43,038 bases of DNA from Flavonifractor sp. An92. GTDB lineage: Bacteria; Bacillota; Clostridia; Oscillospirales; Oscillospiraceae. Of the stretch, positions 1-43,038 are shown one piece after another. The stretch covers positions 1 to 43,038 of the forward strand of contig NZ_NFGZ01000025.1 in the NCBI RefSeq assembly GCF_002159175.1, read 5' to 3'. How positions within the stretch are numbered: position 1 is the stretch's first letter; every line of letters begins with the position of its first letter. Made by a program: the position numbers and the translations under genes. The notes beneath the pieces are model-generated. The model ran no database searches and was not told the origin of the DNA. It saw nothing but the letters and a program-made list of their open reading frames with translations.

Positions 1-107
1 TGGGGGAGTCCAGAGGGGGGTATCCCCCCTCTGGGCTTTCTTTCCCACCGCTTTCTTTGCAAAGAAAGCGGTGCTCCCGCCGAGCAGGCGGCCCGCGCGG
101 CGAGCGC
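1..107 (+). repeat. Truncated copy E of the 355-bp composite inverted-repeat element
   Basis: This is the right-hand part of the repeat family seen complete at 27618-27973, cut by the window start. It holds the GGGGGGTATCCCCCC palindrome (about 12-36), the CCGCTTTCTTTG/CAAAGAAAGCGG palindrome (about 49-72), a terminal hairpin of type CCGCC...GGCGG (about 77-91), and the terminal sequence ending GGCGAGCGC. It has the same orientation as copies A and C. Confidence 0.85.
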
Positions 108-130
108 ACAACCCCCGGGCTTCCCGGGCG

Positions 131-2300: not shown

Positions 2301-3284
2301 ATGGATCTCTATCTCATCTTATGGTACTTTTTTGTCTACGCCGTGCTGGGCTGGTGCGCCGAGGTGTGCTATGCGGCCCTGCGCACGGGGCATTTCGTCA
2401 ACCGTGGCTTCCTCAACGGCCCCGTGTGCCCCATCTACGGCGTGGGCGTGGTGGTGGTCATCCTGCTGCTGACGCCGGTGCGGGAGAACGTGTTTCTCCT
2501 CTTCGTCTGCTCGGTGCTGCTGACCAGCGCCCTGGAGTGGCTCACCGGCTTTGTCTTGGAGAAGCTCTTTCACCAGAAGTGGTGGGACTACTCCGAGATG
2601 CCCTTTAATCTCAACGGGTACATCTGCCCCATGTTCTCGGTGCTGTGGGGCATCGCGTGCCTCCTGGTGATGGACGTGATCCACCCCATGGTGGCGGGTC
2701 TGGTGGATAACATCCCCCACATGGTGGGCGTGGTCCTGCTGAGCGTGTTCAGCGTGGTGCTGGTGGCCGACCTGGCGGCCACTGTGGCCACCATGGTGGG
2801 CCTGAACCGGCAGCTGCGGCAGCTGGAGGAGCTGGCGGGGAAGATCCGCGCCGCCTCCAACGAGCTGGGTGAGAACCTGTCGGCCGGCGTACTCACCATC
2901 TCTGAGAAGGGCGCCGAGGTACGGGAGGACCTGACCGAGCGGGGCGCGGAGCTCACCGAGCGCCTCACCGATCTGCGGGATGACCTGACCGAGCGGGGTG
3001 CCGAGCTCACGGAGCGTCTGACCGACCTGAGAGAGGATCTGAGCGACCGAAAGGCCGCCCGGGACCAGGAACAGGCCCAGCGCCGTCAGGCCCGTGAGGC
3101 GGCGCTCAAGCGCCGTGAGGCCGCTCTGGCCGAGCTGAAGGCCGCCAACGAGGAGCTGCTGTCCACCTACCGCTTCGGGCAGCGCCGCCTGCTGAAAGCC
3201 TTCCCCCACATGACCTCCACCCGCTACGCCGCCGCGCTGGAGGAGCTGCGCGGCCGGCTGGACCGCCGGGGCCGCCGCTCCTGA
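2301..3284 (+). CDS. Putative ABC transporter permease-like membrane protein (PF06541 type) with long coiled-coil tail
   Basis: A 327-residue protein. The first about 180 residues are polytopic (LYLILWYFFVYAVLGW, VVVVILLLTP, then further segments) and carry the hallmark FVNRGFLNGPVCPIYG and WWDYSEMPFNLNGYICP stretches of the family named ABC-transporter type IV, whose transport role is unproven. Residues about 185-320 form a charged coiled coil. It contains two near-identical 18-residue units (GAELTER core) encoded by a 54-bp tandem repeat at 2928-3035, followed by a decayed third. GGAGG is 7-8 nt upstream of the ATG. The in-frame extension back to 1923 is antisense to the preceding gene and is rejected. 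No ATPase partner is adjacent. Confidence 0.75.
   Translation: MDLYLILWYFFVYAVLGWCAEVCYAALRTGHFVNRGFLNGPVCPIYGVGVVVVILLLTPVRENVFLLFVCSVLLTSALEWLTGFVLEKLFHQKWWDYSEMPFNLNGYICPMFSVLWGIACLLVMDVIHPMVAGLVDNIPHMVGVVLLSVFSVVLVADLAATVATMVGLNRQLRQLEELAGKIRAASNELGENLSAGVLTISEKGAEVREDLTERGAELTERLTDLRDDLTERGAELTERLTDLREDLSDRKAARDQEQAQRRQAREAALKRREAALAELKAANEELLSTYRFGQRRLLKAFPHMTSTRYAAALEELRGRLDRRGRRS
2928..3035 (+). repeat. 54-bp tandem repeat, two units, inside the coiled-coil coding region
   Basis: Units 2928-2981 and 2982-3035 encode the same 18 residues with few changes. The next about 15 bases are a diverged third start (GATCTGAGCGACCGA). Leucine spacing within a unit is 7-4-3-4, a heptad plus hendecad pattern. 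Slippage or unequal exchange would change coiled-coil length in frame. Confidence 0.85.
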
Positions 3285-20013: not shown

Positions 20014-20580
20014 ATGAATCTCTGGGAACTGTTTGTCATCGCCGTGGGACTGAGTATGGACGCCTTCGCAGTCTCCATCTGCAAGGGACTGTCCGCCGGG
20101 CGGGTGCGCCCCGGCCACGCCCTCACCGCTGGGGTGTGGTTCGGCGGCTTCCAGGCCCTGATGCCCCTGCTGGGCTGGGCGCTGGGCAAGCGCTTCCAGG
20201 CCCTCATCACCAACGTGGATCACTGGATCGCCTTTGTGCTGCTCTTCCTCATCGGCGCCAGCATGGTCTGGGAGTCCCGCAAGGGCGAGGAAGAGGAAGT
20301 GGACGCCTCCTTTACCCCCCGCGCTATGCTCCCCCTGGCGGTGGCCACCAGCATCGACGCCCTGGCCGTGGGCGTCACCTTCGCCTTCCTGAAGGTGGAC
20401 ATCGTCCCCGCCGTCAGCTTCATCGGCGTGATCACGTTCGTGCTCTCGGCGGTGGGCGTGTACCTGGGCGGCGTGGTCGGCGAGCGCTTCCAGGCCCGGG
20501 CCAAGCTCTTCGGCGGCCTGGTGCTCATCCTCATGGGCTGCAAAATTCTGCTGGAGCATCTGGGCTTCCTGCCCGGATAA
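20014..20580 (+). CDS. Manganese efflux pump MntP
   Basis: A 188-residue membrane protein with six predicted helices at the usual MntP length. The two conserved acidic signatures are visible: GLSMDAFAVSICKG near the N-terminus and ATSIDALAVGVTF after the charged cytoplasmic loop (RKGEEEEVD). It exports Mn2+ to prevent toxicity. ATG 20014 follows GGAAGGGAG. No manganese riboswitch and no MntR-like site is seen in the short leader, so control is unclear. Confidence 0.95.
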   Translation: MNLWELFVIAVGLSMDAFAVSICKGLSAGRVRPGHALTAGVWFGGFQALMPLLGWALGKRFQALITNVDHWIAFVLLFLIGASMVWESRKGEEEEVDASFTPRAMLPLAVATSIDALAVGVTFAFLKVDIVPAVSFIGVITFVLSAVGVYLGGVVGERFQARAKLFGGLVLILMGCKILLEHLGFLPG

Positions 20581-20619
20581 CGAAACGCCGCCGCCCCAAT
20601 TTGGGGCGGCGGCGTTTCG
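20581..20619. terminator. Bidirectional terminator between mntP and the esterase gene
   Basis: An 18-19 bp perfect GC-rich stem (CGAAACGCCGCCGCCCC with its complement) directly abuts the mntP stop and precedes the convergent stop at 20628. Confidence 0.85.
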
Positions 20620-20627
20620 TTGTCTCT

Positions 20628-21374
20628 TCATGGATTGCCCACCACATGGGGCAGGAAATAGCGGATCTGGCGCTTCCACCAGGGCCAGTCGTGGTCGGAG
20701 TCGGTGCCCCAGTAGTCCACCCAGGCGTGGATGCCCTTCTGCCGCAGCACCCCCTCCAGCCGCCGGGTGCCCGCCAGGAGCTGGTCCTCCCAGGCCCCCT
20801 GACCCACGCAGAAAATGAGGATGCGCTGGTTGAACATGGAGATATACGGGTGGTCCGGGGACATGCCGGAGAGGCTGGCGCAGGGGTCGTTGGCATACAC
20901 CACCTCATCCATATACCCGCCGTACATGTCCTGGGTGTCGTAGACGCCCGAGAGGGCGATGACGCTGTCGAAGAGGTCGGGGCGGCGGAAGAAGAAATTG
21001 GCCGCGTGGTAGGCGCCCATGGAGAAGCCGGTAGCCAGCAGGGGCTGGCCGCTGCGGTTGATCTCCCGGATGCGGGGGAGCAGCTCCTCGATGACATAGT
21101 TGTACCAAGCCTCATGCCGGCGGACCCGGTAATAGGGGTTGCCCCACTGGTCAGAGACGCTCTCGGCGTCGATGGTGTCCACGGTGAAGAGCTGGATTTT
21201 GCCGTTTTCCAGATAGTCCCCCAGAGTCTCCAGCATGCCGAAATTCTCCCAGTCGAAGAAGCGGCCGTTCTGGCAGGGCACCGCCAGCACGGGCTTTCCC
21301 CCGTGGCCGTAGACCTTGAATTCCATATCCCGGCCCAGGTGGAGGCTGTATTCCTTGTGGTACTCGATGTACAT
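20628..21374 (-). CDS. Alpha/beta-hydrolase esterase-like protein
   Basis: A 248-residue protein of the uncharacterised esterase group (COG4947-like). The nucleophile elbow GFSMGAYHA is about at residue 117, with aromatic-rich sequence before it (RRHEAWYNYVIEELLP). A late Asp/His pair (WGTDSDHDWPWW) probably completes the triad. There is no signal peptide, so it acts in the cytoplasm. I place the start at ATG 21374, preceded by GGGGAGGGG; the in-frame ATGs up to 21449 lie upstream of or within the promoter. Substrate unknown. Confidence 0.85.
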   Translation of the reverse strand: MYIEYHKEYSLHLGRDMEFKVYGHGGKPVLAVPCQNGRFFDWENFGMLETLGDYLENGKIQLFTVDTIDAESVSDQWGNPYYRVRRHEAWYNYVIEELLPRIREINRSGQPLLATGFSMGAYHAANFFFRRPDLFDSVIALSGVYDTQDMYGGYMDEVVYANDPCASLSGMSPDHPYISMFNQRILIFCVGQGAWEDQLLAGTRRLEGVLRQKGIHAWVDYWGTDSDHDWPWWKRQIRYFLPHVVGNP

Positions 21375-26021: not shown

Positions 26022-27383
26022 TTAGTCCTCCACGGCGTAGTGCTTGCACAGCTCATACAGGGTGGTGACGCCGGCGCCGGTGGCGCCCACAGTCTGGTAG
26101 TCCCGGCGGGGAGAGTCCACCCAGGCGGTACCGGCAATGTCCAGGTGGATCCAGGGCCGCTCCTCCACGAAGGAGCCGATGAACAGGCCCGCGGTGATGG
26201 TGCCGCAGCCGTCGCTGGATACGTTGGACACGTCGGCGATGGGGCTCTCGATCATCTTTCGGTACTCGGGGAAGGCGGGCAGACGCCAATACTGCTCGCC
26301 GCTGCGGTCGTAGGCGACCTGGAAGGCGGCGCAGAAGTCCTCGTCGTTGCACAGGAACCCGGCGGTGGTGAAGCCGAACATGCTCACGACCGCGCCGGTG
26401 AGGGTGGCGATGTCCACCACCTTGGCGGCGTGCTCCTTCTGGATGGCGTAGGTCACCGCGTCGGCCAGAATGAGGCGGCCCTCGGCGTCGGTGTTGCCGA
26501 TCTCAATGGTCTTGCCGGACATGGAGGAGATGACGTCGCCGGGGATGTAGCTGTCGGGGGCGATGCGGTTCTCCACCGAGGGGATGACCACGGTGGCATT
26601 GACCTTCACATGGTTGGCGGCCAGAGCCAGCAGAGCGCCGCACACCGCCGCCGCGCCGGCCATGTCGCCCTTGATGCCCTTCATGGAGGAGGCAGGCTTC
26701 AGGCAGTATCCGCCGGTGTCGCAGGTGACGCCCTTGCCCACCAGAGCGATGGGGGCGTCACCCTCCTTGCCGCCCTTGTAGCGCAGGACGATGAGGCGGG
26801 CGGGGTGGTTGGCACTGCTGCCCACGGTGAGGAAGGCGTCCATACCCAGAGCACGGGCCTGGTCCTCGTCCAGCACCTCGGTCTCGATGCCCAGGGCCTG
26901 GGCCTCCTTGACCATCCGGGCGGCCATGTCGCTGGGGGTCAGCTTGTTAGCCGGGCAGTTTACCAGGTCCCGGGCCAAGCAGATGGCGCGGGTGAGGGCG
27001 TCGGCCTCCTTCAGGGCGTCCTCACACTCCGCGGGGGCGTCCAGGTAAAAGACCGGGTCGGTGTTCTCGGTGTCCTTCCAGGACTCGGTGCGGTACAGGG
27101 CCAGTTCCACGCCCTGGGCGATGGCCGCCGCGCCCTGGGGGCCCAGGGCCTCCACCACGGCCGCCGCGTCCAGCACCACGGCCGCCGCGCCCAGGTCCCG
27201 GAGGGTCTTGGCCGCCTTGGCCGCCGCCACCCGGACTTGCTCGGCGGTCAGCTTCTCAACCTCGCCCAGCTCCACGGCCAGGATGCAGCCCTCGCCGCCG
27301 GGCTGGACCTTCTGGCCCTCCTTACCGCCGGTGGTGAAGCCGACGGTCCACTGTACCTTCTGACCCTGATACCGTTCCATCAT
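26022..27383 (-). CDS. Leucyl aminopeptidase family (M17) peptidase
   Basis: A 453-residue metalloaminopeptidase. The N-terminal domain (about 1-150) is variable. The catalytic domain has LVGKGVTCDTGGYCLKP (metal-binding Lys and Asp), SMKGIKGDMAGAAAV, and the M17 signature NTDAEGRLILADAV. It would release N-terminal residues from cytoplasmic peptides as a hexamer with two divalent metals. I place the start at ATG 27383, because AGGAGG is 8 nt upstream; the in-frame ATG at 27407 has no site. It is the first gene of a three-gene operon. Confidence 0.94.
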   Translation of the reverse strand: MMERYQGQKVQWTVGFTTGGKEGQKVQPGGEGCILAVELGEVEKLTAEQVRVAAAKAAKTLRDLGAAAVVLDAAAVVEALGPQGAAAIAQGVELALYRTESWKDTENTDPVFYLDAPAECEDALKEADALTRAICLARDLVNCPANKLTPSDMAARMVKEAQALGIETEVLDEDQARALGMDAFLTVGSSANHPARLIVLRYKGGKEGDAPIALVGKGVTCDTGGYCLKPASSMKGIKGDMAGAAAVCGALLALAANHVKVNATVVIPSVENRIAPDSYIPGDVISSMSGKTIEIGNTDAEGRLILADAVTYAIQKEHAAKVVDIATLTGAVVSMFGFTTAGFLCNDEDFCAAFQVAYDRSGEQYWRLPAFPEYRKMIESPIADVSNVSSDGCGTITAGLFIGSFVEERPWIHLDIAGTAWVDSPRRDYQTVGATGAGVTTLYELCKHYAVED

Positions 27384-27482
27384 AAGGGATCCCTCCTGAA
27401 CAATCATACTGCCCCCGGTGCGGGGGAAATTTCTAACATCAGCTTAAGAAATAGCGCGGAAATGGCCCGCTCCTTCTCCCCT

Positions 27483-27511: not shown

Positions 27512-27617
27512 GAAGCAACCGGGGCGGGGGCGGGATGTTTTTGGAGGAAAAAACGGACCTTACAGGGCTGATATTAAGTTGATGAAAAAAACGTCCCAAT
27601 CGGGGCGTGGGGATCGT

Positions 27618-27973
27618 GTCCCCGCCGGGCGGGCGTCCTGCGCGGACAGCGCCCGATTTCTTTTCGCAGAAAAGAAACCGGGGAAAGAAAAGGCGGAGAG
27701 GGGAACTTCTCGTTCCCCTCTCCACTCCCCTCCAAAAGGGCGGCCTTTTTAGGGGGCCGCCCATATTGCCAGGGTACAACGCTCTCCGGATAGGCGGAAA
27801 GCCCGGAATTGGCCACGCCATACTAAGGAAATACCGCCGCAGCGGAATGAAAGCCGGGGAGCGCTTTGGGGGAGTCCAGAGGGGGGTATCCCCCCTCTGG
27901 GCTTTCTTTCCCGCCGCTTTCTTTGCAAAGAAAGCGGTGCCCTGTCCGCGCAGGACGCCCGCGCGGCGAGGGC
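27618..27973 (+). repeat. Complete copy A of the 355-bp composite inverted-repeat element
   Basis: A 356-bp copy. The left terminus is GTCCCCGCCGGGCGG and the right terminus CCGCGCGGCGAGGGC, near-perfect inverted repeats. Both subterminal hairpins are of type GTCC...GGAC. Inside are a TTTCTTTT/AAAAGAAA palindrome (27657-27677), a GAGAGGGGAA/TTCCCCTCTC palindrome, a GGGCGGCC/GGCCGCCC hairpin, a CTTTCCG/CGGAAAG hairpin, a GGGGGGTATCCCCCC palindrome and a CCGCTTTCTTTG/CAAAGAAAGCGG palindrome (27914-27937). No convincing gene is present. It lies between the aminopeptidase promoter and the 3' end of the SLH gene. Confidence 0.92.
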
Positions 27974-28004
27974 AAAACATCCCCGCCCGCCCCGGGCGAA
28001 CTTG

Positions 28005-29096
28005 TTACAGCGCCAGATCCAGAGTATAGGCAGTGGCCAGAAGCTGCTGATAGGCGGTGTCAGCGCTGGCTCCGGAGGCATGGGAGAGGGTCAGCTCCAC
28101 ATAGGAGCCGCTGTTCTCCACGCAGAACACGGTATAGACCGTGTTAACCACCTGATACCGCCAGGACACGGCGGGAAGGCCCCGGAACAACACCACGCCG
28201 GGCTGCTGGAGCAGCTCCACACCGCCCAGCTCATCCCGCAGAGCGGTGAGGCGGCCTACGGAGAAGGTCTCCAGGTCCTTGGCGCCGCCGTCCGCCTTGG
28301 CAAAGGACAGGGCCTGAATGGTGCCGCTCTGGTCAGTGAAGGTGAGGCCGGAAGCCCCGTCCTCGGTGATTTCCTTCCAGTCCCCCGCGCCGAAGGTCAG
28401 GCGGAAGGCCTTGTCCGGGCTCTCCACAGTGGTGCCGCTGGCGGGGGTGTCCATGTTCAGCTCCACCCGGCTCTCGGGCAGGGCGATGCGGTTGAGAATG
28501 GCGGCGGCGCTGGCGCGGTCGATGGTGGTGTCGGGGGCAAAGCTGCCGTTGCCGGTGCCGGCCAGCACGCCCGCATTATAGAGGAGGTAGATGGCCTCAG
28601 CGTAATCGGTGGAGGAGGTCACATCGGGCACATTGGCCACCCGGTTGATACGCTCCAGCTCACTGGTGGGCAGTGCGTAGGCAAAAATGCCCGCCATGTC
28701 GGCCCGTGTGGCGGGGGCGGTGTAATCGTTGTACTCCCCCTGGAGCACCAGACCGTTCTCCAGGGCGTAGTCCACGGCGTTCTGGTACCAGGTGGAGCCG
28801 CCGGGGGTGAAGCTCTCGCCGGTGTAGGTGGCGTGGACCTGGACGGCCATGGTGATGGCCTCGGCCAGGGACAGGGTGCCCTGGGGGTCAAAGCGGCCGT
28901 CGCCCTTGCCCTTCATGAGGCCCAGCTCCACCGCCTTTTCCACATCGGCGGCGTACCAGGCGTTGGCGTCCACGTCGGAGAAGGGGGTGTATTCCACCTT
29001 GGGGACAAAGGAACTCATGCCCGCGGCGGCGACGGGCAGAGTGAGGGCAAGCGCCAGACCCAGAGGGGCCAGAGCGCGGGGCAGCGTATGTTTCAT
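28005..29096 (-). CDS. S-layer homology domain surface protein
   Basis: A 363-residue exported protein. A signal peptide (LALALTLPVAAAG) is followed by three SLH-type repeats: FSDVDANAWYAADVEKAVELGLMKGKGDGRFDP begins the first (about 38-70), a second covers about 95-135, and YNAGVLAGTGNGSFAPDTTIDRA marks the third (about 170-200). SLH domains bind pyruvylated wall polysaccharide. The C-terminal about 150 residues are a beta-rich domain that I do not recognise. AGAGGAG precedes the ATG. The 3' end lies 32 nt from repeat copy A, with only a CGCCCG/CGGGCG hairpin between them. Confidence 0.9.
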   Translation of the reverse strand: MKHTLPRALAPLGLALALTLPVAAAGMSSFVPKVEYTPFSDVDANAWYAADVEKAVELGLMKGKGDGRFDPQGTLSLAEAITMAVQVHATYTGESFTPGGSTWYQNAVDYALENGLVLQGEYNDYTAPATRADMAGIFAYALPTSELERINRVANVPDVTSSTDYAEAIYLLYNAGVLAGTGNGSFAPDTTIDRASAAAILNRIALPESRVELNMDTPASGTTVESPDKAFRLTFGAGDWKEITEDGASGLTFTDQSGTIQALSFAKADGGAKDLETFSVGRLTALRDELGGVELLQQPGVVLFRGLPAVSWRYQVVNTVYTVFCVENSGSYVELTLSHASGASADTAYQQLLATAYTLDLAL

Positions 29097-31417: not shown

Positions 31418-31470
31418 GGGATGCCCTCCTTAGATCGTGTGATATGTCCCGGACATTCCGGGAGAATTTT

Positions 31471-31824
31471 GCCCTCGCCGGGCGGACGTCCTACCCGGAC
31501 AGGGCACCGCTTTCTTTGCAAAGAAAGCGGTGGGAAAGAAAGCCCAGAGGGGGGATACCCCCCTCTGGACTCCCCCAAGGCGCATCCCGGCTTTCATTCC
31601 GCTGCGGCGGTATTTCCAAAGCATGGCGTGGCCAATTCCGGGCTTTCCGCCTATCCGGAAAGCGTTGTACCCTGCTGCTTGGGGCGGCCCCCTAAAAGGC
31701 CGCCCTTTTGGAGGGGAGTGGAGAGGGGAACGAGAAGTTCCCCTCTCCTTCTTTTCTTTCCCCGGTTTCTTTTCGAGAAAAGAAACCGGGCCCCCGCTGG
31801 GTAAGCGGCCCGCCCGGCGAGGGC
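31471..31824 (-). repeat. Complete copy B of the 355-bp composite inverted-repeat element
   Basis: A 354-bp copy in the opposite orientation to A and C. The termini GCCCTCGCCGGGCGG and CCGCCCGGCGAGGGC are perfect 15-bp inverted repeats. The subterminal hairpin at the low-coordinate end is of type GTCC...GGAC and at the high-coordinate end CCGCT...AGCGG, so the two ends differ. The palindromes at about 31504-31529 (CCGCTTTCTTTG type) and 31764-31793 (GGTTTCTTTTC type, with CCCGG/CCGGG outer pairs) are intact. It lies between the unknown gene and the 3' end of the Crp/Fnr gene. Confidence 0.92.
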
Positions 31825-31849
31825 AATCACCCCCTCCCGGGGTGGCCCC

Positions 31850-34916: not shown

Positions 34917-34954
34917 GAGAGCCGTTGCGGAGGGAGTTCCTTCTGCAACGGCTC
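34917..34954 (+). terminator. Hairpin after vanZ, weak terminator candidate
   Basis: AGAGCCGTTGC pairs with GCAACGGCTCT around a 15-nt loop that contains GGAGG and CCTTC. The sequence after it (GTCGCTTTCC) is only moderately T-rich. Confidence 0.5.
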
Positions 34955-34983
34955 TGTCGCTTTCCGGGGAGCCGGGAGGATTT

Positions 34984-35339
34984 GCCCTCGCCGGGCGGGC
35001 CGCCTGCTCGGCGGGAGCCCCACTTCTTTTCGCGAAAAGAAATGGGGGAAAGAAAAGGCGGAGAGGGGAACTTCTCGTTCCCCTCTCCACTCCCCTCCAA
35101 AAGGGCGGCCTTTTCGGGGGCCGCCCCAGATTGGCAGGGTACAACGCTTTCCGGATAGGCGGAAAGCCCGGAATTGGCCACGCCATGCTTTGGAAATACC
35201 GCCGCAGCGGAATGAAAGCCGGGATGCGCCTTGGGGAAGTCCAGAGGGGGGTATCCCCCCCTCTGGGCTTTCTTTCCCACCGCTTTCTTTGCAAAGAAAG
35301 CGGTGCCCCCGCTGGGTAAGCGGCCTGCGCGGCGAGCGC
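34984..35339 (+). repeat. Complete copy C of the 355-bp composite inverted-repeat element
   Basis: A 356-bp copy in the same orientation as A. The left terminus is GCCCTCGCCGGGCGG with a CCGCC...GGCGG hairpin. The right terminus ends GGCGAGCGC with a CCGCT...AGCGG hairpin. The subterminal palindrome (about 35028-35055) has outer pairs CCCCA/TGGGG where copy B has CCCGG/CCGGG, so both changed positions keep pairing. It fills most of the gap between the convergent vanZ and spoIID genes; the spoIID stop is 7 nt away. Confidence 0.92.
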
Positions 35340-35345
35340 ATCCAA

Positions 35346-41829: not shown

Positions 41830-42861
41830 ATGCACTCGGTCAAAGCAAAGCTCCCCGGCCTGCTCCTGTGTCTGGTCATCGCCCTGCCCTGCTGGTTCCT
41901 GGGCAAGCTCGTCCCCGTGGTGGGCGGCCCGGTGTTCGCCATTCTGGCGGGCATGGTCATCACCCTGGTCCTCACCGACAAGACCCGCTTCCAGGCGGGC
42001 ATCGCTTACACCTCCAAAAAGATCCTCCAGTACGCCGTCATCCTCCTGGGCTTCGGCCTGAACCTGTCGGAGATCGCCAAGGTGGGCGCCCAGTCCCTGC
42101 CCATCATCTGCTCCACCATCGCCACTTCCCTGATCATCTCCTTCGTGCTCTATAAGCTGATGAAGATGCCCGCCAACATCTCCACCCTGGTGGGTGTGGG
42201 CTCCTCCATCTGCGGCGGCTCGGCCATCGCCGCCACTGCCCCGGTCATCGGGGCCGACGACGAGGAGATCGCCCAGGCCATCTCGGTCATCTTTCTCTTC
42301 AACGTCCTGGCCGCTCTCATCTTCCCCACCTTCGGCGGGGCCATCGGCCTGACCAATGAGGGCTTCGGCCTCTTCGCCGGCACTGCCGTCAACGACACCT
42401 CCTCCGTCACCGCCGCCGCCTCCACCTGGGACACCCTCCACGGCACCAACGGCGCGGTGCTGGAGTACGCCACCATCGTCAAGCTCACCCGCACCCTGGC
42501 CATCATCCCCATCACCCTGGTGCTGGCCTTCTGGCGTACCTGGCAGGTGAAGCGGGGCGGCAACACCTCCAACGGGTCCTTCTCCCTGAAAAAGGTGTTC
42601 CCCACCTTCATCCTCTTCTTCGTGCTGGCCTCCATCATCACCACTGTGGCCACATCCGCCGGGGTGAGCGCCGCCGTGTTCTCCCCCCTGAAGGAGCTGT
42701 CCAAGTTCTTCATCGTCCTGGCCATGGCGGCCATCGGCCTGAACACCAACATTGTCAAGCTGGTCAAGACCGGCGGCAAGCCCATCTTCATGGGCTTCTG
42801 CTGCTGGGTGGGCATCACCTGCGTGAGCCTGGGGATGCAGCACCTGCTGGGCCTGCTGTAA
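41830..42861 (+). CDS. YeiH family putative sulfate exporter
   Basis: A 343-residue membrane protein with about ten hydrophobic segments. The family marks are [37 protein letters not shown] and [16 protein letters not shown]. Members are called putative sulfate exporters (UPF0324); the substrate has rarely been tested. In E. coli and relatives a LysR protein next door controls the gene, as here. GAGAGGG precedes the ATG. Repeat copy D begins 11 nt past the stop. Confidence 0.92.
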
Positions 42862-42872
42862 AAGCTGATTCT

Positions 42873-43038
42873 GCCCTCGCCGCACAGGCGTCCTGCCCGG
42901 ACGGGGCACCGCTTTCTTTGCAAAGAAAGCGGTGGGAAAGAAAGCCCAGAGGGGGGATACCCCCCTCTGGACTCCCCCAAAACGCATCCCGGCTTTCATT
43001 CTTCTGCGGCGGTATTTCCAAAGCATGGCGTGGCCAAT
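42873..43038 (-). repeat. Truncated copy D of the 355-bp composite inverted-repeat element
   Basis: The first 166 bp of a copy in the same orientation as B, cut by the window end. The terminus GCCCTCGCC is followed by GCACAGG in place of GGGCGG, then a GTCC...GGAC hairpin, the CCGCTTTCTTTG palindrome and the GGGGGGATACCCCCC palindrome. It continues into the core sequence as far as GGCGTGGCCAAT. Confidence 0.9.

Follow-up and report, generated by a model that had tools for sequence, protein, structure and literature searches.

A family of non-coding, hairpin-ended interspersed repeats at gene ends in Flavonifractor sp. An92 and related genomes

The window analysed here is a stretch of 43,038 nucleotides that makes up the entire contig C18 of Flavonifractor sp. 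An92 (G000:C18:1-43038). The contig starts within one copy of a repeated element and ends within another, as an earlier note on this DNA had read it, and a similarity search bore out the five copies, in both orientations, that the note had described (89-91% mutual identity of the three complete ones, E-values 1e-129 to 1e-142). Copy A (1-108, plus strand) is truncated by the contig start and retains only its right end, which closes with ...GGCGAGCGCA. Copy B (27617-27974, plus strand) is complete and is flanked by tandem minus-strand genes at 28005-29096 and 26022-27407. Copy C (31470-31825, minus strand) is likewise complete and flanked by tandem minus-strand genes, and copy D (34983-35340, plus strand), the last complete copy, is flanked by convergent genes (VanZ-like and SpoIID-like). 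Copy E (42872-43038, minus strand) lies directly after the plus-strand gene 41830-42861 and is truncated by the contig end. The GC content of the copies is 63-64%, compared with 64.8% for the window, and they are not AT-rich. Another recurring hairpin with terminator-like features (GAGCCGTTGCAGAAGG... type) is found beside several copies, at 34920-34955 and at the An92 loci L005, L023 and L044, and 54-nt tandem repeats occur within a predicted gene at 2914-3054.

The boundaries of the element were set at 5'-TG and CA-3'. These boundaries give 358, 356 and 358 bp for copies B, C and D in place of the 356, 354 and 356 bp first reported. The terminal inverted repeats of these copies are perfect for 2-16 bp from the tip and longer if imperfect, as in the short, non-coding elements classed as MITEs. 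The perfect 15-bp repeat once ascribed to copy B was not found: its ends mismatch at positions 3, 6 and 12 of 24, and among the three complete window copies a long perfect repeat (16 bp) is present in copy C only. No coding version of the element was found in the An92 genome, and none of our home-made gene calls overlaps any of 44 An92 copies.

A complete copy is built from two hairpin chains, inverted relative to each other, on either side of a variable core. From the outside to the inside, an end consists of HP4, which is very variable and lies beyond the terminal inverted repeat, HP3, HP2, HP1, which is a long palindrome, then a linker resembling GGGAAAGAAA, and finally HP0. The opposite end mirrors this order with stems of its own, and the ends enclose a species-specific core. 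HP3 has a 4-bp stem and the loop GGCGA, HP2 has a 5-bp stem and the loop GNGYA, and both 5-nt loops are near-fixed. An HP4 stem of at least five pairs was found at 52 of 75 An92 ends, compared with 9 and 10 of 75 control stretches, and at 57 of 119 ends of the relative Candidatus Flavonifractor merdigallinarum, compared with 14 and 9 of 119 controls. On the left side of copy B, HP1 (27655-27679) is a large hairpin with the arms TTTCTTTT and AAAAGAAA, and HP0 (27693-27725) is a 14-bp hairpin followed by CTTTTCTTTC that is terminator-like and outward-facing on the minus strand. On the right side, HP0 (27880-27898) is followed by GGGCTTTCTT and is terminator-like and outward-facing on the plus strand, HP1 (27917-27934) is the palindrome CTTTCTTTGCAAAGAAAG, HP2 (27943-27957, plus strand) reads TGTCC-GCGCA-GGACG and HP3 (27961-27973, plus strand) reads GCGC-GGCGA-GGGC. 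This is among the few mismatched HP3s, and the left HP3 of copy B is irregular too. The region of copy B folded as DNA gave a z of -13.3. A proposed resemblance of the linker to the HP1 arm was not retained; the mean match was 7.47 compared with 6.50 when swapped (0 of 20,000 shuffles as high), as measured on 19 hand-picked, non-independent ends.

The covariation of HP2 and HP3 was examined in 216 ends collected with a pattern that had the loop consensus built in and the stems free. The main paired forms of HP3 were GCGC/GCGC (79 ends), GTCC/GGAC (47), GTGC/GCAC (39) and GCCC/GGGC (25). The five variable pairs of the two hairpins were Watson-Crick in 200-209 of the 216 ends, compared with 88-127 expected under independence; the outermost pair of HP2 had no Watson-Crick excess (148 compared with 141 expected, plus 58 G-T pairs). 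In alignment A1, which comprises 56 hand-picked sequences of the 97 distinct 31-mers, 96% of the cells were paired and 115 cells carried double changes, compared with 44 when shuffled (0 of 500 shuffles) and 0-8 when slid. Twelve of the 216 ends, those with fewer than seven of nine pairs, had been set aside beforehand, so A1 was pre-filtered for pairing and the unfiltered count over 216 ends is the fairer figure. Because the stems of HP2 and HP3 covary, the folded form has been kept while the letters change. The two ends of one copy share an identical hairpin type less often than expected (22 compared with 35.4, p=0.002; 34 An92 and 42 Ca. F. merdigallinarum copies with two hairpins each, one copy of the latter left out). 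The idea that one copy's ends tend not to carry matching hairpins was not retained, as it arose post hoc on the same data and one of its four parts, that for HP2 in Ca. F. merdigallinarum, is null (5 compared with 4.7); a version based on energy is weak (p=0.08 for An92 and 0.14 for the relative).

A search of the An92 genome (3.49 Mb in 60 contigs, 99.14% complete) and of its relatives found copies far beyond the five in the window. The number in An92 is ~53 loci by hand tally, with fragments and contig-end halves counted, and not the hundreds per genome that had been projected. With copy C as the query, forms of the element were matched in all nine relatives from Flavonifractor/Pseudoflavonifractor (G001-G009) and in 0 of 30 genomes of other genera. 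These relatives include Pseudoflavonifractor gallinarum DSM 107456 (G006), Ca. F. merdigallinarum (G007, a MAG that is 81% complete), the Oscillospiraceae MAG E12__bin334 (G008) and Ca. F. intestinipullorum (G009, 81% complete). A covariance model of the ends, R1, matched eight of the ten genus genomes, with at least 90 ends in An92, at least 149 in G007, 16 in G004, 13 in G005, 12 in G002, 5 each in G009 and G008, 2 in G006 and 0 in G001 and G003; scoring covered up to 150 candidates in each genome, so the larger counts may be minimum values. G001 and G003 were matched through inner segments only. In a scan of the order with stricter filters, R1 matched 2 of 394 genomes, An92 and G005, among the best 18 candidates per genome, a setting that a weak relative could escape. 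A short internal pattern with one mismatch allowed matched 3 of 300 family genomes (An92, G006 and G008). In a scan of named genomes all of the at least 80 loci among the matches listed belong to G006-G009, at least 77 of them to G007.

Plasmid and phage collections searched with the element gave no match, nor did viral contigs match one exact pattern of it. Rfam gave 0 matches to the window and, for the region of copy B at E up to 1, six matches that were all below the gathering score. No published description of the hairpin element was found in the open-licence literature. At least 4 of the 60 contig starts lie inside a copy (C18, C19, C29 and C42). The proposal that contigs mostly break in the element was rejected on this count of 4 in 60, at least 4 further starts being read as N and therefore not judgeable. 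By eye, the An92 loci L046, L049-L052 and L056 form a minority subtype with a core nearer to that of G007 and G009 than the main An92 subtype is. In P. gallinarum the XRE-mutS spacer holds a half element with a single hairpin arm (L035), and whole elements fill this site in An92 (L003) and G009 (L032). At L039 and L037, GTAGGGGCG-type palindromes, which we take to be typical RAYT-associated REPs, adjoin the related element of G001, and a similar GGGGCG palindrome is present in a G005 copy.

The copies are extragenic, near gene 3' ends and rarely between divergent genes, which is the placement of REPs and REPINs. The gaps that hold the 44 An92 copies are convergent in 22 cases, tandem in 21 and divergent in 1, and 43 of the 44 copies adjoin a gene 3' end. 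The 31 gaps of at least 40 bp in the window served as the baseline (7 convergent, 15 tandem and 9 divergent); compared with these, divergent gaps are rarer (Fisher p=0.001) and convergent gaps commoner (p=0.018).

Many sites are common to An92 and Ca. F. merdigallinarum, and at these sites content and orientation differ without site memory. By flanking gene, 33 element ends are shared. The tests of spacing and memory used 27 of the 33 ends, after six with differences of more than 100 nt had been removed, the orientation test used 28 ends and the haplotype test used 29 ends that were not oriented. The spacing to the flanking gene is correlated between the species (Spearman 0.69, n=27 ends), with a difference of at most 5 nt at 10 ends compared with 4.0 expected (p=0.0012; p=0.059 for the median difference). 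Orientation is the same at 14 ends, opposite at 13 and uncalled at 1, and with the ends grouped by hand it is the same at 11 of 22 sites and opposite at 11. Identical hairpin types are no commoner than expected at shared ends (HP3 6 of 29 compared with 6.4; HP2 5 of 29 compared with 6.9). Nowhere in the last 110 nt inside the element are orthologous ends more similar than random (p 0.53-0.95, 27 ends); over the first 12 nt outside it, the similarity is above random (p=0.006, 27 ends) and rises outward. Site memory begins beyond the last base of the element. The flank excess is clearest at opposite-orientation sites (5-30 nt, p=0.00025). For same-orientation sites taken by themselves the tests within 50 nt give no significant excess (p 0.23-0.31), and significance is reached only at distances of more than about 40 nt. 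Their inner segment, 110-80 nt from the end, does exceed random (p=0.001); this is expected, since these pairs were selected for a common arm type.

Six orthologous copy pairs are no more alike (0.775-0.846) than copies of the two species are on average (0.802), compared with 0.88 and 0.87 within the species. In the 18.8-43 kb region of the window, with site A not included, three of four An92 sites and three of four Ca. F. merdigallinarum sites coincide (p=0.027, 16 eligible gaps). Position is inherited between these two genomes; content and direction are not. A copy of the relative, L110, is a recombinant junction that joins the flanks of two different An92 sites. Near the window, its contig C57 has three order changes, of which one carries a copy, one abuts the place of the An92 copy C and one does neither, and both ends of C57 fall at site B. 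At 20580-20628 the relative has copies that adjoin the gene ends on either side of a convergent gap and An92 has none, which makes this a site specific to Ca. F. merdigallinarum.

We think it probable, with no great confidence, that the element is a non-coding interspersed repeat family defined by structure and belonging to one genus, REPIN/BIME- or BOX-like, that sits in long-lived slots. In each genome, copies would be exchanged, or inverted where they stand, with the boundary of exchange at or close to the terminal TG...CA. The route may be ectopic recombination together with gene conversion, or else an enzyme able to recognise the ends in their folded form. Exchange is favoured because of the coincidence of three of four sites in both genomes in the 18.8-43 kb region and because target duplications were not detected. 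Independent insertion at the same preferred spots could also produce shared positions with random orientation. The outermost hairpins, which lie at the edge of the homology and have no site memory, are not easily explained by plain arm-anchored gene conversion.

The retention of the slots would be explained by a role as a two-way terminator or 3'-UTR element. Read outward, HP0 on each side is followed by a pyrimidine tract and is terminator-like in copies B, C and D on both strands, with T tracts interrupted by C, and the 9-kb region of these copies holds 22 terminator-like sites compared with 7.1 in shuffles. A terminator role is plausible from these pattern matches, and the opposed, outward-facing hairpins may make each copy a two-way stop for transcription and a 3'-UTR structure, a step we put forward more tentatively than that of the slots. 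It is possible, though not probable, that this role is the whole of the matter: a bidirectional terminator or 3'-UTR module that benefits the host would be maintained by selection, with gene conversion keeping its copies alike and its mobility long extinct. The location at 3' ends, the opposed hairpins, the compensatory stem changes and the conservation of sites all agree with such a module. However, the element is missing from the orthologues of the C, D and E gene ends in close relatives, the number of ends varies widely (from at least 149 in G007 to 0-5 in G001, G003, G006, G008 and G009) and several genes carry their own terminator before the element.

A second alternative, which we regard as unlikely, is an active MITE-like element that an unrecognised transposase, with a strong preference for terminator-proximal sites, mobilises in trans; the shared sites would then be repeated independent insertions. 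The TG...CA ends with inverted repeats, the random orientation at shared sites and the species-specific cores would suit it. So would the empty sites that were sought in relatives and found (C, D and E in both G008 and G009; E also in G006), where at such distance no footprint could be recognised. Against it, no signal of target site duplication was detected in 37 copies at k=2-14 (all p>0.1), in line with the earlier note, which had seen no obvious duplication. Nor did a list of 73 end-pattern sites in the An92 genome (9 control hits), read by eye, contain a widely spaced, gene-sized pair, and in the own assembly, which has gaps, neither an autonomous relative nor a larger repeat with the same ends was seen. 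The coincidence of sites in the 18.8-43 kb region also speaks against repeated insertion.

The transposase or tyrosine recombinase with matching ends that had been proposed as a target did not emerge. For transposases the family covered was Y1_Tnp (Y1/RAYT), with 0 candidates in An92 at its 99.14% completeness and 0 matches in G005, G007, G008 and G009 (G007 and G009 being only 81% complete); matches are present in G001-G004 and G006. The integrase (PF00589) and resolvase (PF00239) families are present in all ten genus genomes, including 2 integrase and 11 resolvase matches in G007, which has the most ends of all, and no candidate dedicated to the element stands out among them. A new kind of cassette is rather doubtful in our judgement; in it, dozens of long-lived slots would carry ends coded by hairpins, and an enzyme recognising these ends when folded would invert and swap the contents of the slots precisely at TG...CA. 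Invertons are segments between inverted repeats that are flipped by a recombinase. The element resembles them in that its inverted repeats enclose a short segment that occurs in either orientation at shared sites, here in a between-species comparison of An92 and Ca. F. merdigallinarum, but no dedicated recombinase was found and dozens of copies share one kind of ends.

It is improbable that the covariation of the stems reflects the correction of quasi-palindromes by template switching and not selection for folding. Whole stems do change together with few intermediates, as template switching would have it, but hairpin order and loop length, judged by eye, stay the same in species whose stems differ, and identical HP3 stem types recur in several genomes. 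Ordinary REP/RAYT-type repeats are very improbable: the niche, the hairpins and their inverted pairing are alike and G001-G004 and G006 have Y1_Tnp matches, but An92, G005, G007, G008 and G009, which include both genomes richest in ends, have none, and no GTAG was seen at the feet of HP2 and HP3, whose stems do not look like the 8-9-bp CGTC type of PMC3733652.

The preferred reading, a repeat family in long-lived slots, finds its nearest parallels in described repeats. REPINs and BIMEs are, according to PMC3116915, inverted hairpin pairs that are non-coding and intergenic and have compensatory stem changes, and REPs are described in PMC3733652 as mostly near the 3' ends of convergent or tandem genes with 8-9-bp CGTC-type hairpins. 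Compared with what these papers and PMC8049555 report, the element behaves in a REPIN-like way: it shares the inverted hairpin pairs, the non-coding and intergenic nature, the compensatory changes and the placement at 3' ends. Unlike a REP, which is a single 20-40 bp unit, the element measures ~360 bp and has hairpins of several kinds at each end, and its genome lacks Y1/RAYT. The feet of HP2 and HP3 are without GTAG, CGTC occurs in some HP2 types in stems of 4-5 bp, unlike the described type, and content and orientation turn over at shared sites.

The BOX, RUP and SPRITE repeats of Streptococcus pneumoniae are, according to PMC3049150, structured repeats confined to few species and enriched between convergent genes, with about half of the sites common to all strains, terminator-like SPRITEs, and target duplications reported for BOX and RUP. 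The element is likewise structured and taxon-limited, with enrichment in convergent gaps, shared sites and a likeness to the terminator-like SPRITE; it differs in sequence and architecture and in having no target duplication in 37 copies. Prokaryotic MITEs, as described in PMC10969869, are short and non-coding with terminal inverted repeats and stem-loop folding. The element has all of these features, but has no target duplication signal, no parent IS in its own assembly and no AT-richness. It therefore fails one defining test of a REP (RAYT) and two of a MITE (target duplication and an autonomous relative). Of the earlier suggestion of a MITE- or REP-like, perhaps domesticated element, the non-autonomous, REP-like and perhaps domesticated character fits and the MITE part falls, given the missing target duplication signal, the GC content close to that of the window and the failure to see a larger element with the same ends in this assembly; the likeness to REPs is one of resemblance and does not extend to formal membership, for want of a Y1/RAYT gene in An92, G005 and G007-G009.

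The copies contribute to breaks in the assembly and adjoin some rearrangement junctions. How structured repeats with no transposase spread and stay alike, and whether they are functional, is a long-standing puzzle. With slots but not contents in common between two species, the family allows a direct test in gut commensals.
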